The translations under genes and the position numbers were made by a program. Below are positions 6,419-54,077 of a stretch of 64,000 bases of DNA, piece after piece. How positions within the stretch are numbered: the first letter of the stretch is position 1; each line of letters opens with the position of its first letter. The DNA lies in NCBI GenBank assembly GCA_913776615.1, contig CAJYPK010000034.1, positions 124,001-188,000 of the forward strand, read 5' to 3'. Below the pieces are notes generated by a model. That model saw nothing but the letters and a program-made list of their open reading frames with translations, ran no database searches and was not told where the DNA came from. This stretch comes from an uncultured Hymenobacter sp. Its GTDB lineage: Bacteria > Bacteroidota > Bacteroidia > Cytophagales > Hymenobacteraceae.

Positions 6419-6582
6419 GAGTTATAAGTTATGAATTAGAAGTTATGAGTTGAAGTCATGGCTAGATTAGGAGTCAAAGTCAACTCATACTACCACGCCC
6501 GGCGCATCCGCTGCCTGCACGGACCAGAGTCATGGCTACCCCAAAAGCCAACTCATAACTTCTAATTCATAACTCATAACTC
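6419..6582. repeat. Inverted repeat built of heptamers, 34-nt arms
   Basis: gagttataagttatgaattagaagttatgagttg (6419-6452) vs reverse complement of 6549-6582, 33/34 identity. Confidence 0.9.
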
Positions 6583-22010: not shown

Positions 22011-23000
22011 ATGCCGCCACTCGCCACCCCCACTGCTAACACTGCTTTTTCTGGTCTTATCTCGGTAGTCGCCCCGCTTTACAACGAGGCCGACACCGTG
22101 GCCCAGCTCGTGAGCCGCGTGGCCGCCGTGATGCAGCAGCACGGCTACGACTACGAGCTTATTCTGGTCAACGACGGCAGCACCGACCGCAGCTGGCAGA
22201 TGATGCAGGAGCTGGCCGCCCACGACCGCCACCTGGTGGCCATCGACTTGGCCGGCAACTACGGCCAGACGCTGAGCCTGCGCGCTGGCTTTGCCCAGGC
22301 GCGCGGCGAGGTCATTATTGCTATGGACGGCGACCTGCAGCACGATCCGGCTTACATCCCGCAGTTTATCAGCCTCATCAACGAGGGCTACGACATGGTG
22401 GGCGGGGCCAAGGCCAAGCGCCCCGAAGGTCCCATTGCCACGGCGCTGGCCACCACGGCGCACGGCATTATCCGGCGCTTGTCGGGGGTGCAGCTGCGTT
22501 ATTTCGGGGCTACGTACAAGGCCTACCGCAGCTACCTCGTAAAGAACGTGGAGATGCTCGGCGACGCTCACCGCTTCCTGGGCGCGCTGGTGGCCCGCAA
22601 GAATCTACGCTACTGCGAGTTTCCAATTGAGATTCACGAGCGGCAGTTTGGTCAGAGTAACTACAAGATCAGCAAGCTCTTCTACGTCATTCTCGACCTG
22701 TTTATTCTGCGGTTTTTCATTGTGCACTCGCGCAAGCCGTTCCGGCTGTTTGGCTTGTCGGGGCTGCTGAGCTTACTGCTGGGCGGCGGGCTGGCGGGGC
22801 AGTTTCTGATTCGTTCCGTCTTCTTTGGGCTCAATATTTTTGGTACCTACCCGCTGGAATTCATCTTCAGCCTATTCCTGATTATGGCCGGCATTTTCCT
22901 GCTGTGCTTCGGGGTATTGGCGGAGATTGGCATGTACAACTACTACTCGCGGCGCACGCGTACGCCCTACGTGGTGCGGAAGGTGGCTTCGCTAGAGTAA
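22011..23000 (+). CDS. Glycosyltransferase family 2
   Basis: ISVVAPLYNEADTVAQLV, ELILVNDGSTDRSWQM, VIIAMDGDLQHDPAYIP, C-terminal TM pair. Confidence 0.92.
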   Translation: MPPLATPTANTAFSGLISVVAPLYNEADTVAQLVSRVAAVMQQHGYDYELILVNDGSTDRSWQMMQELAAHDRHLVAIDLAGNYGQTLSLRAGFAQARGEVIIAMDGDLQHDPAYIPQFISLINEGYDMVGGAKAKRPEGPIATALATTAHGIIRRLSGVQLRYFGATYKAYRSYLVKNVEMLGDAHRFLGALVARKNLRYCEFPIEIHERQFGQSNYKISKLFYVILDLFILRFFIVHSRKPFRLFGLSGLLSLLLGGGLAGQFLIRSVFFGLNIFGTYPLEFIFSLFLIMAGIFLLCFGVLAEIGMYNYYSRRTRTPYVVRKVASLE

Positions 23001-23472
23001 TTCGAGTAAATAGGAGTAGTTTGAGTAATCGAATCACAGGCCATGACGACTAGTGATAAAGCCGCTCGTAATGAAGCGTTTCGGCAGCGAACTCAGGTAG
23101 CGGCGTTGCGTGTAATTCGGCTTTATCAACAGTTGCCGCGATGCGGGGAGGCGGAAGTGTTGGGCAAGCAGCTTTTGCGATCGGCGACCTCAGTAGCGGC
23201 TAACTACCGGGCCTCTTGCCGGGCTCGATCGGGGGCCGAATATTTCGCCAAGCTTTCTATTTGCGTGGAGGAAGCCGATGAGACGCAGTTCTGGCTGGAT
23301 CTTCTGGGACAAGCTGACATTATAGCCCCCATTCGCTTACAACCGCTCATGCAAGAATACGCAGCCATCACGGCTATACTCACTACTGCCCGTAAATTGG
23401 CCAGTAAGTAACTATAAAAGAGGCAAATACTCCACCCATTACTCAAATTACTCCCATTACTCAAACTACTCC
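22995..23472. mobile_element. Putative cassette: four-helix-bundle (IVP-type) gene bounded by 9-mer-based inverted repeats
   Basis: 17-bp perfect core IR ggagtagtttgagtaat (23013-23029) / attactcaaactactcc (23456-23472), weaker match extending to ~35 nt (22995-23029 / 23439-23472). Confidence 0.55.
23043..23411 (+). CDS. Four helix bundle protein, 23S rRNA intervening-sequence (IVP/S23) type
   Basis: LYQQLPRCGEAEVLGKQLLRSATSVAANYRASCRARSGAEYFAKLSICVEEADETQFWLDLL is the family signature. Confidence 0.9.
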   Translation: MTTSDKAARNEAFRQRTQVAALRVIRLYQQLPRCGEAEVLGKQLLRSATSVAANYRASCRARSGAEYFAKLSICVEEADETQFWLDLLGQADIIAPIRLQPLMQEYAAITAILTTARKLASK

Positions 23473-24271
23473 CAAGCGTCTCATCATCAACTGTGACGAC
23501 TACGGCTGGGATGCGCCCGCCACCCAGGCCATTCTGGAGCTGGGCGCGGCTGGGCAGGTTAGCAGCACGACCGTCATGGCCAACTTCGCCAGCGACGCTG
23601 AACTGCGCGAGCTGGCCCGCCTGGCCTCGCCTACCTTTTCGGTAGGCCTGCACCTCACCCTGAATGCCGGCCCGCCGCTGAGCGCCGCCTCGGCCGTACC
23701 CTCGTTAATCGACACCAATGGGCAATTCTACTCCTCCAGCCAGCTGTGGCAGCGCTACTTGCGCGGTCAGGTGCGCCCGGCGGAGATGCAGGTAGAAATC
23801 GGTGCCCAGCTGCGCCGGCTGGCCGACGCGGGACTAGCCCTCACCCACGCCGATAGCCACCAGCACCTGCACCAATATCCGCTGTTGGGGCCGGCTTTGC
23901 TGCGCATCTTGCGCGCGCTCGGCGTGCGCCGGGTGCGGCGCCTGACCGCAGCGGGGCGGCTCGACGGGCGTGGCCTCGTGCTCCGGGCCTTTGCCGCCAG
24001 CAGCCGGGCGGCCCTGCGCGATTTTGCCACGCCGGGGGCATTGGTGAGCACGTTTTCGACCGAAGCGGCCAGCGCGGCGGGCTTTCGACGGGGCGTGGCC
24101 GCCGCGTTTCGGCGCACCGACACCGCCGAGTTTATGAGCCACCCGGGGCTGAGCGAGCGGCCAGGCTCGCCGCTGATGCGGGTGCCGGAGTACACCTTCT
24201 GGCGCAGCGGCGAGGCCCGGGAGCTGCTGCGGGAACTGGGCGGCGAGCTGGTGAGCTACGCGGTGGTGTAA
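23438..24271 (+). CDS. ChbG/YdjC-like carbohydrate deacetylase; no canonical start upstream of catalytic N-terminus
   Basis: In-frame RLIINCDDYGWDAPATQAILELGAAGQVSSTTVMANF... from 23477; THADSHQHLHQYP. ATG at 23576 would remove the CDDYG motif; 23438 is only an ATT codon used as a nominal boundary. Confidence 0.7.
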   Translation: MTQITPITQTTPKRLIINCDDYGWDAPATQAILELGAAGQVSSTTVMANFASDAELRELARLASPTFSVGLHLTLNAGPPLSAASAVPSLIDTNGQFYSSSQLWQRYLRGQVRPAEMQVEIGAQLRRLADAGLALTHADSHQHLHQYPLLGPALLRILRALGVRRVRRLTAAGRLDGRGLVLRAFAASSRAALRDFATPGALVSTFSTEAASAAGFRRGVAAAFRRTDTAEFMSHPGLSERPGSPLMRVPEYTFWRSGEARELLRELGGELVSYAVV

Positions 24272-42426: not shown

Positions 42427-43947
42427 ATGCCTAGCCCCCACGACGAGCTCACCCTCAACAACCAACCCAACGAAATTGCCGGTAATCGCCCGGCGCAGCC
42501 TGCCGCCGATACGACGAAGCTGAGCGCCGACGCTCATAGCACCAACGCCAATAGCTCGCTGCAACCCGCCACTCCCGCCATGCAGTCGGGGGAAGCTACT
42601 CGCCCACCTTCCAGCACGGAGCTGGCCGACAGCGAGATGGAAGCCGGTAAAGGGGCCGTGGAAGACGGCGGCCACCAGGAAAACCGTGAAGCCAACCCCG
42701 GCAGCGTGCAGCCGACCGCCAGCCGCCCGGGCCAAAGCTTGCACGAGCTAGCCAGCAAGCCGGCCCCGACCACCTCCAGCCCAGTCAGCGGCTCCACTCC
42801 CCCACCCGCCAGCAGCGAGCTGGTCGACAGTGAGATGGCCGCTGGCCACGGCGCTGTGGAGGATGGCGGGCACCGGGAAAACCGCGAGGCCCACCCCGCC
42901 GACCTGACCGGCATTCCGGCCCAACCCCGGCAGCCCAACGTCTACGGCGGCAACTTCGGCAACGACGTGCAGGGCAGCTTGCACGACCGCAACCGGGCCA
43001 GCAACCAGCAAGCCGATCCAAATCGGGGCGAGTTTGGTACGCAGGGCACGCTGGGCGGCACCCACGGCGGCTTCGGCAACCAGTACCGGGAAATTGATAC
43101 CGCCGCCGAACATCCCGCCGCCGAGGCTACCGAGGAAAAATACTACGGTCAGGGAGCTTCCGAACCCGGTCCCCAGCACAATGCCTACCGCGCCTACGAC
43201 GGCCGCGACCAGCGCCCCGAGCAGCAGGGCCACGCCGTGCGCGACACTCCCACGCCCCCGGCCATGAGTTTCGACAATAACGTGGCCGACCGCCAGACCG
43301 ACGGCCGGGGCAACGTGCAGGACAACCGCAACCTACCCGACAAAGCGGGCGAAACGGCCGCTTTTCAAAACGACAACGGTGCCCCCACGGTAGGCCCGGC
43401 CTACGCCGCCGACTACGGCCACACCTCGGGCGCGAGCCTGCCAGCCGATGCCGTTGATAATCACCTGCCGATGGGCCCCAATGGCCACGGCGAACTGGAA
43501 GATGCGCGCTCCTCGCGGGGAGGCTACGACAACCAGGGCAGCCAGGGTGGCCGCAGCCACGACCAGCAGCCCGGCGGCCACGCGCCGGCCAGCCAAGACG
43601 CCCCCGCCCCCGTCGATGCGCCCAACGCACCCCAAACGCCCGGCTACGGCTACGGCCACGAGCGTAGCGAGGCCGCCCGCCCCGGCAACCCCGACACCGG
43701 CGACTCGCGCAACGGCTTCGGCCCCGGGGGCTCCAAGCAGGGCGATGCCAGCCAGGGCTACGGCTCTAAAGGTGGCTCCTACGACGACCAGAACCCCGGT
43801 GCCCGCGGCCCCGAGTACGACAGCTTCACCCAGCAGGATAAGGCTCAGAACTACGGCCAGCACAACCGCGACAACTTCCGCCCCGCAGACGGCGACAAGC
43901 CCGCCGAAGGCGACTACGGCCCCGAGCCCCGCCGCAACGCGCAGTAG
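42427..43947 (+). CDS. Hydrophilic, low-complexity, probably disordered protein with internal repeat
   Basis: 506 aa rich in G/N/D/Q/P; repeated SSxELxDSEMxAGxGAVEDGGHxENREAxP. Confidence 0.7.
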   Translation: MPSPHDELTLNNQPNEIAGNRPAQPAADTTKLSADAHSTNANSSLQPATPAMQSGEATRPPSSTELADSEMEAGKGAVEDGGHQENREANPGSVQPTASRPGQSLHELASKPAPTTSSPVSGSTPPPASSELVDSEMAAGHGAVEDGGHRENREAHPADLTGIPAQPRQPNVYGGNFGNDVQGSLHDRNRASNQQADPNRGEFGTQGTLGGTHGGFGNQYREIDTAAEHPAAEATEEKYYGQGASEPGPQHNAYRAYDGRDQRPEQQGHAVRDTPTPPAMSFDNNVADRQTDGRGNVQDNRNLPDKAGETAAFQNDNGAPTVGPAYAADYGHTSGASLPADAVDNHLPMGPNGHGELEDARSSRGGYDNQGSQGGRSHDQQPGGHAPASQDAPAPVDAPNAPQTPGYGYGHERSEAARPGNPDTGDSRNGFGPGGSKQGDASQGYGSKGGSYDDQNPGARGPEYDSFTQQDKAQNYGQHNRDNFRPADGDKPAEGDYGPEPRRNAQ

Positions 43948-44239
43948 AGTTATGAGTTAAAAGTTAGAAGTTATGAGTTGGCTTATTGGGCCAGTTTATA
44001 ACTTCTGACTTGGACACTCATGATGAGTCAAGAGGTATGCCTTGAAGCTGTTTATGACTAAAAACGGCTGTCATGCTGAGCTTGCCGAAGCATCTCGCTC
44101 GCACCGTTATAAGGAAGCGAGCGAAATGCTTCGGCAAGCTCAGCATGACAGCCGTTTTTGTTGACTTACCTCACAACCGATTTCCTTGCAAGTTGCTGAT
44201 TCAGCCAACTCATAATTCCTAACTTCTAACTCATAACTC
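43947..44239. repeat. Composite element: heptamer inverted repeat enclosing a REP-like palindrome
   Basis: Outer arms 43947-43983 / 44203-44239 (34/37); inner arms 44061-44101 / 44118-44158 (40/41). Confidence 0.9.
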
Positions 44240-48889: not shown

Positions 48890-48974
48890 GAATTAAAAAT
48901 TAAAAATGAGAAATTAAAAATTTACAGGTCAATCGGTTGCTCATTTTTAATTGTTCATTTTTAATTTTTAATTC
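48890..48974. repeat. AT-rich heptamer inverted repeat
   Basis: gaattaaaaattaaaaatgagaaattaaaaat (48890-48921) vs reverse complement of 48943-48974, 30/32. Confidence 0.88.
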
Positions 48975-53200: not shown

Positions 53201-53938
53201 CCGGCGCCCACCGTGGTGCTCCCGCCCGACACTGTGCTGTGCCCGGGCAGCAGCCAATCCTTCCGGCTACGGGCCTCGCCGGCCGGGGGCGTGTGGACCG
53301 GGCCGGGCATATCGGCGGGCAACGTATTTTCGCCGATGCTGCCGGGCACCAGCGTACTTACCTACGCTGTCGATTCGGGTAAATCCTGCCCGGTAGTGGC
53401 TACGCGCCGCATTACGCTATTGGCTCAGCCGGTGCTGGCACCTACGCTTATTCCGGGCAGCTGCACCCCGAGCGCGGTAGCGCCGGTAGTGGTGCACTAC
53501 CAGCAGCCGGCTACCGGCCTACCCGCCGACGCGGTGCTGACCTGGAATTTTGGTGATGCCAGCCGCGATACGGTCGGGCTTGACGTAACGCACACCTACT
53601 TTACCGAAGGCACCTTTCACCCCCGGGCGACGCTCCGTTTCAATCAGGGTCGCTGTGAGCAGGTCGCCACGCTACCGGCCGTCACGGTGGAGAAAATGTT
53701 CATTCCAAACGCCTTCACGCCCAACGCCGACCGCGTCAACGATTTTTTCGAGCCCCGAATCGGTGGCTGTCCGCCGCGCCTGCAAATATTCTCGCGCTGG
53801 GGCCAGCGGGTGTACGAAAGCGCAGCCTACCACAACGACTGGAACGGCACCGGCCTGACCCCAGGCATTTATTACTACCTACTCACTCCTCCCAACGGTG
53901 CCCCATCCATCAAAGGCTGGGTGGAATTACTGCGGTGA
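50273..53938 (+). CDS. Large secreted protein, DUF7948/SBBP-type repeats, Ig-like repeats, gliding-motility-associated (T9SS type B) C-terminus
   Basis: FIANKGQWPAEVRYAA; SBBP-like STYLGGxxxD repeats; three GGxWTGPGxxG repeats; C-terminal MFIPNAFTPNADRVNDFFEP...RWGQRVYESAAYHNDWNG. Confidence 0.88.
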   Translation: MQNIFYAIVLCLATLARTGRAQEPPTGSPRLAVAPPAVETNLEFIANKGQWPAEVRYAAAVPGGHLYLEPGGLRYVLLEAVEHPHEQPAHSAAASARPSAAGANSTPAAEGAISGHQLRVRFAGADATTPLAPAQATGEVRNYLHGSDPSRWASAVPSYRQVRYQAPWPGIAARFYENATQRLEYDFEVAAGADASRVQLRYEGATSLTLSADGQLHVGTSVGNLTELAPHAYQVDAATGEHQPVACRYRLRVADAHVSFELGAYDHARPLVIDPTVIFSTYSGSRSSNWGFTATYDAAGNLYSGGIVLDDSFDLPSYPTTMGAFQTRFGGLIDIALIKYNTTVSGTAARVWATYLGGSRHDFPSSLVVNAQGELIVLGTSASNDYPTTNGALQRDFKGGISVGPFGASTDNLYQVSSGTDLVITRLRADGGGLAASTYLGGTGNDGMAAYVPSSNARQLPQNYGDALRGDVFTDAQGNIYVASVTSSANFPTTAGSFGPGYRGGSCDAVVCKLPATLDRLTWSGLLGGSAADAAYSIQLDSQGNAYVGGGTLSPAFPGTGGGYQAQAQGSVDGFVARIAANGSTVQRATYLGTDKYDQAFFIQIGADGGVYVLGQTLGRWPVSAGIYSNPGSCQFIQKLSPELDRSLLSTVFGSGRSTIDISPTAFLVDQCDRVYASGWGGDVNGNRNQLYTYPGFVNQNGFTHGMPTTPNAVRTAPDNPTAGSDFYLAQFAPGMTGLTYATFYGDPNSGSRGDHVDGGTSRFDPRGVVYAAACACASFSGFPMPPGAFSYATTNGTGSSLLCNNAAFKLNFEPTTADVGKDQALCVTAPPLALSGRPGGGFWTGPGVAGSVATGFTFTPSPTLVGAQVLTYTVPGAANACTTSARLTVTVEASTPATASAPASICASGGPVALTTGRPAGGIWTGPGVSGSVATGFFFTPTQALLGTQQLSYTIIDPASCGGGRTRATVAVVVLPAPTVVLPPDTVLCPGSSQSFRLRASPAGGVWTGPGISAGNVFSPMLPGTSVLTYAVDSGKSCPVVATRRITLLAQPVLAPTLIPGSCTPSAVAPVVVHYQQPATGLPADAVLTWNFGDASRDTVGLDVTHTYFTEGTFHPRATLRFNQGRCEQVATLPAVTVEKMFIPNAFTPNADRVNDFFEPRIGGCPPRLQIFSRWGQRVYESAAYHNDWNGTGLTPGIYYYLLTPPNGAPSIKGWVELLR

Positions 53939-54077
53939 GGTGGTGAAGTGGTGAGATGGTGAAGTGGTGAGATGGTGAAATCCCTATCAGAAACTTCCTC
54001 CTTAGCCATCCTGCCGGCGGCTTACCCTTTCACCGCTTCCTTTGTACTCACCATTTCACCACCTCACTATTTCACCA
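53934..54077. repeat. Octamer/heptamer inverted repeat flanking a codirectional junction
   Basis: Left ggtgaggtggtgaagtggtgagatggtgaagtggtgagatggtgaaat; right actcaccatttcaccacctcactatttcacca (54046-54077); ~27/31 over aligned arm. Confidence 0.85.

Follow-up and report, generated by a model that had tools for sequence, protein, structure and literature searches.

The intervening sequences (IVS) of bacterial 23S rRNA carry an S23/IVP open reading frame bordered by a stem and are excised by RNase III without ligation (PMC4990558). In Leptospira and Coxiella, these elements share with the cassette described here a PF05635 homologue, an ORF placed in the loop of a stem and a length of ~0.4-0.5 kb (PMC4990558). 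Structures of S23/IVP proteins have been solved and their function is not known; the heptameric repeats scattered among bacteria are likewise without explanation. Cyanobacterial STRR, for instance, are heptameric tandem repeats. GGGAATC heptamers have been described in Xanthomonas and Nostoc, with 70 convergent pairs in Xanthomonas (Rehm 2015, PMC4692102), and TAACTGA heptamers in Beggiatoaceae (MacGregor 2015, PMC4679880). REPIN/RAYT and MITE/transposon pairs offer a further comparison, since there, as among the IVP hairpins reported below, few gene-bearing copies accompany many gene-less ones with the same kind of ends; unlike those systems, however, IVP is a four-helix bundle without a known catalytic site, and its hairpins have no fixed end sequence and enclose dissimilar loops.

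The window analyzed here, a stretch of 64,000 nucleotides from the 6.08-Mb genome of an uncultured Hymenobacter sp., contains a PF05635 gene whose ORF is bordered by a stem, as in an IVS element; unlike the 23S rRNA IVS, this cassette sits between two protein-coding genes, GT2 and YdjC (Table 1). IVP cassettes resemble rRNA IVS in protein and anatomy but differ from them in having arms of 7-9-nt units and abundant ORF-less satellites, and because they do not lie within a 23S or 16S rRNA gene they fall outside the rRNA IVS class. The perfect 17-bp inverted repeat and its weaker extension out to ~35 nt, noted in a preliminary description of this DNA, are present where they had been placed, and the proposed composition of the arms from ~9-nt units was borne out by right-arm spacings of 9 and 9 nt. 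GT2 does end inside the hairpin: its final codon and stop, GAG TAA (22995-23000), open the left arm. The right arm adjoins the YdjC reading frame. The transcript is also predicted to fold as a long stem around the ORF, as had been suggested, with the two arms pairing to enclose everything between them (MFE -169 kcal/mol, z -2.05). We obtained a stem score of 19 for this locus; the chance level was set by 1500 segments of 370 nt drawn at random from this genome, of which 10 (0.67%) reached a score of 14 and two reached 17. When ORFs of 90-160 aa were taken mechanically, 4 of 282 reached a score of 14, two of those four being PF05635 genes. An Rfam scan of the region gave no match near the gathering score. 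We also noted that the YdjC frame offers no ATG, GTG or TTG upstream of its conserved KRLIINCDDYG start (window 23411-23476), where the 9-nt units supply only ATT codons; an ATG is missing before YdjC in the other IVP carrier (G010) and in an IVP-free relative (L088, G081) as well.

Table 1. Coordinates of the cassette, its host genes and further hairpins in the window
Feature	Position	Strand	Remark
Glycosyltransferase family 2 (GT2)	22011..23000	+	upstream host gene
Left arm	22995..23029	+	GAGTAATTC GAGTAAATAG GAGTAGTTT GAGTAAT; overlaps GT2 stop codon
17-bp perfect stem, left side	23013..23029	+	
IVP / S23 four-helix-bundle gene	23043..23411	+	122 aa, PF05635
Right arm	23429..23472	+	9-nt units x4, inverted copy of left arm
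17-bp perfect stem, right side	23456..23472	+	
YdjC-like deacetylase	23474..24271	+	downstream host gene
ORF-less hairpin	6419..6582	.	7-nt units (GAGTTAT..)
Hairpin	43947..44239	.	7-nt units, REP-like palindrome in loop
ORF-less hairpin	48890..48974	.	7-nt units (AATTAAA)
ORF-less hairpin	53935..54067	.	8-nt units (GGTGAAAT)

The protein encoded in the loop matches PF05635 (23S_rRNA_IVP/S23) with an E-value of 4e-16 and 59.4 bits against a curated cut-off of 33.8, so that its earlier assignment to the four-helix-bundle IVP family holds, although its length is 122 rather than 123 aa. Its predicted structure consists of four helices (pLDDT 95.9) and is best matched among solved structures by 2rld (TM 0.78-0.89), with 2gsc also matching. 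Weaker matches were to Avd of diversity-generating retroelements (DGR; 4dwl) and to a DGR ribonucleoprotein (8ub7); Avd and the window IVP have the same fold, with ~14% identity in the fold match. XCC0516 (2gsc), a solved S23-family relative of the window IVP, is a pentamer.

All five PF05635 genes of the window's own genome are flanked by short tandem units arrayed in inverted, matching arms, and these units differ in every copy (CATTTAA-, AGTTATG-, TTAATTG-, GAGTAATTT- and GGTGAAAT-type); five copies with five units lack the fixed terminal inverted repeats expected of a MITE or transposon. Across the genus, 67 of 74 loci had a stem score of at least 14 compared to 9.5% for cross-paired flanks, and a further 20 of 20 loci of the classic 'WQKAM' type scored at least 12. 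Matched arms were present at 9 of 10 plasmid loci from cyanobacteria, Bacteroidota, Spirochaetota, Chloroflexota and Bacillota. Among 78 named genome loci from many phyla (including Planctomycetota, Gemmatimonadota, Ignavibacteria, Lentisphaeria, Chloroflexota, Clostridia, Leptospiraceae, Acidobacteria and Cyanobacteria), 60 scored at least 14, compared to 16% for cross-paired flanks, and 70 lay above all of their own shuffles. Gammaproteobacterial XCC0516 homologues exceeded their shuffles in 23 of 31 cases, as did 13 of 19 loci in the family of one such homologue. Most members of every set tested carry flanking stems, and we found neither a gene that is always present at orthologous loci nor family members generally without inverted repeats, the two outcomes named beforehand as speaking against the cassette. 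The window cassette is one case of a general architecture around PF05635 genes. Short tandem repeats are frequent in these spacers, and low-complexity intergenic repeats might have come to flank a small gene by chance or as a mutational artefact; this explanation is refuted by the cross-paired, shuffled and random-segment controls and by the recurrence of the same architecture in many phyla, and its probability is negligible.

Unit length follows the protein. Within the 78 cross-phylum loci, the period was exactly 7 nt in all 59 with a clear one; over all loci, 113 of the 114 whose protein falls outside the clade of the window IVP had a period of 7 nt, and 53 of the 56 with a protein of that clade had 8-9 nt, the corresponding counts for the genus alone being 35 of 36 and 53 of 54. 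The Fisher p-value for this association (1e-41) is overstated, as it reflects a single evolutionary change. Because the other IVPs of genomes that carry a window-clade IVP retain 7-nt units, unit length goes with the protein lineage rather than with the host. The window copy has 9-nt units compared to 7-nt units in its sister copy from G010, indicating that unit length is still able to shift.

The two arms of a cassette are also coupled to one another. Arm identity was 85% in register compared to 73% after a shift of one unit (p 5e-12), and at an emrAB-like site, where a cassette occurs in 40 species, own arms reached a median score of 19 compared to 9 for arms paired across species (p 3e-8); the units have diverged among species, yet the arms fit each other within each. 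G:U pairs in the arms showed no strand bias (138:124 sense versus antisense). Selection at the RNA level through G:U pairs was rejected on this count, and the coupling is therefore more in keeping with copying or conversion of DNA, or with selection blind to the strand, than with selection on RNA only. The same result bears on an RNA-processing cassette, in which RNase III would cut the transcript stem and part the upstream from the downstream message, with IVP as by-product or helper. That arms close the predicted RNA fold and that RNase III excises IVS elements (PMC4990558) agree with such a role, but the transcribed strand has no excess of G:U pairs and some plasmid IVPs oppose their neighbors, as between cas2 and cas1, so that IVP genes need not share a transcript with the host operon; we consider this explanation quite improbable.

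Hairpins with the same kind of arms are common outside IVP loci. Across 464 kb of the window's genome, we identified 34 tandem-arm inverted repeats (~7 per 100 kb), mostly without an ORF, compared to none in shuffled sequence and a single doubtful GC-rich match in 300 kb of three IVP-free genomes; neighboring unit arrays were convergent in 21 cases and divergent in none. An 8-nt unit pattern had 119 matches genome-wide in the own genome compared to 0-4 in IVP-free genomes, and the number of 8-nt arrays per genome had a median of 9 with the window clade and 0 without it (p 1e-8), rising to 115 where the IVP carries that very unit compared to 7.5 in other clade genomes. AATTATG-type IVP arms were found only in genomes holding 25-315 such arrays; G001 holds 114 AATTATG matches, and none of its IVP copies has that unit. 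Shared unit types link the IVP cassettes of a genome to its ORF-less hairpins, which are scarce in most IVP-free relatives. Some IVP-free genomes nonetheless hold 20-40 seven-nt arrays (30 in G029, 20 in G046 and 40 in G091, which is incomplete), and we rejected IVP as a strict prerequisite for hairpins. The loops of ORF-less hairpins are unlike one another, apart from one pair of longer repeats, and copy-and-paste of entire hairpins was rejected on this ground.

The main rival explanation takes IVP genes to be passengers in hairpins that arise and spread by an unrelated route, either slippage combined with template switching or another enzyme, the genes lodging in the loops because operon junctions tolerate a stem. 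The ORF-less hairpins of some IVP-free genomes and the dissimilarity of the loops fit such a history, as do the REP-like palindromes that also occupy such loops and a different hairpin type that carries a different ORF. What speaks against passengers is that unit length tracks the protein clade even within one genome, that the unit types of IVP arms agree with the genome-wide arrays, and that, in the 464 kb of the own genome, an IVP gene sits in every tandem-unit hairpin (3 of 3) whose loop measures 350-500 nt. We regard the passenger explanation as unlikely.

It is instead reasonably probable that IVP cassettes and ORF-less hairpins form one family of intergenic tandem-unit hairpins, spread through many bacteria, in which the cassettes are the minority that bears a gene, with putative recognition of the units by IVP. 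In a cassette of this kind, inverted arrays of 7-9-nt units form a hairpin that encloses an Avd/S23-like IVP gene, and the pentameric IVP probably recognizes these units through putative binding, either to the RNA fold or to DNA that is extruded or single-stranded. Such recognition would keep both arms matched and let hairpins, with or without the gene, settle at new operon junctions, while units would be rewritten by arm-to-arm copying (conversion or template switching). The most economical mechanism, we infer, has IVP recognizing the units and treats ORF-less hairpins as its satellites; IVP would then be the driver of the ORF-less copies. Against this explanation stand the 7-nt arrays of some IVP-free genomes, the AATTATG-rich G001, the unlike loops, the lack of G:U strand bias and a second hairpin type with another ORF or with terminators, so that loops may simply tolerate cargo.

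For the window copy, the cassette would have taken the place of the GT2-YdjC spacer. Comparison of this junction among close relatives revealed the empty sites anticipated in the preliminary description: IVP is present in 2 of 17 junctions, those of the own genome and G010, which have different units, and absent from 15. In G107, the sister of the own genome, the junction (L077) holds a hairpin that has no ORF and a third type of unit (CATTTAA), and the other 14 hold other spacers. Both neighboring genes extend into the arms of the L077 hairpin, the upstream one with its stop codon and the downstream one with its start codon. The two IVP carriers stand apart in the tree, each beside an IVP-free genome, a pattern that may reflect independent gain or repeated loss. 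No clean target-site duplication was visible by eye at GT2-YdjC, where the spacers are too diverged to define ends. The preliminary description had protein and stem travelling together as in rRNA IVS; this stands insofar as the IVP gene is packaged in an IVS-like stem outside rRNA, but not as a fixed unit, since there is no fixed stem sequence, the unit differs from copy to copy and ORF-less hairpins outnumber gene-bearing ones. IVP cassettes are putatively mobile; at the emrAB-like site, all 40 species have the cassette in one orientation, a uniformity that does not point to current mobility.

Published heptamers resemble IVP arms in their 7-nt units, their intergenic location and their many copies per genome, and the GGGAATC repeats of Xanthomonas share convergent pairing with the unit arrays of IVP genomes. 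The GGGAATC repeats were described in the species whose XCC0516 was crystallized (Rehm 2015, PMC4692102); by word search, that paper makes no mention of XCC0516, and word searches of it and of PMC4679880 for S23, XCC0516 or four-helix terms gave no link between heptamers and an IVP gene. We found no earlier report of an IVP-heptamer link in the open literature, most subscription papers lying outside that scope. At L295 (G488 C14, about 67960-68420), an XCC0516-like IVP, frameshifted, lies within GGGAATC arms between neighbors read by eye from their reading frames as accB and accC, in a genome with 62 GGGAATC-pattern matches. The plasmid IVPs of Nostoc and Dolichospermum likewise lie within heptamer arms. 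We tentatively suggest, as a possibility somewhat short of probable, a two-part system across phyla, in which Avd/S23-type proteins recognize and maintain or spread hairpins and set their unit length; if so, heptamers described decades ago, the cyanobacterial STRR and Xanthomonas GGGAATC, would be gene-less satellites of IVP cassettes. The co-occurrence of IVP and tandem units, with length tracking the protein, gives both a shared testable hypothesis and a sequence-defined substrate for binding assays.

Several minor observations concern the hairpins and their surroundings. REP-like palindromes (TGTCATGCTGAGCTTGCCGAAGCATC) lie inside tandem-unit hairpin loops at window 43947-44239 and at L123:3204-3532. 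A second hairpin family of the own genome has a fixed terminal repeat (CCGCAGATTTAACGGATTTAACGG...; L107:13954-14363, L108:2555-3088, L109:11847-12070 and L114:2300-2532), and its loops are occupied by terminators or, in the case of L108, by a 117-aa ORF (MVGSTFLYRPVNQAELDLIAASGWRAFPP...) that matches no Pfam family. Plasmid IVP genes from other phyla (L182, L183, L185, L187 and L190) sit within defense gene clusters, flanked by cas2 and cas1, by hsdS and hsdR or by drmD and an MmeI-type enzyme, or adjacent to a DNA methyltransferase.
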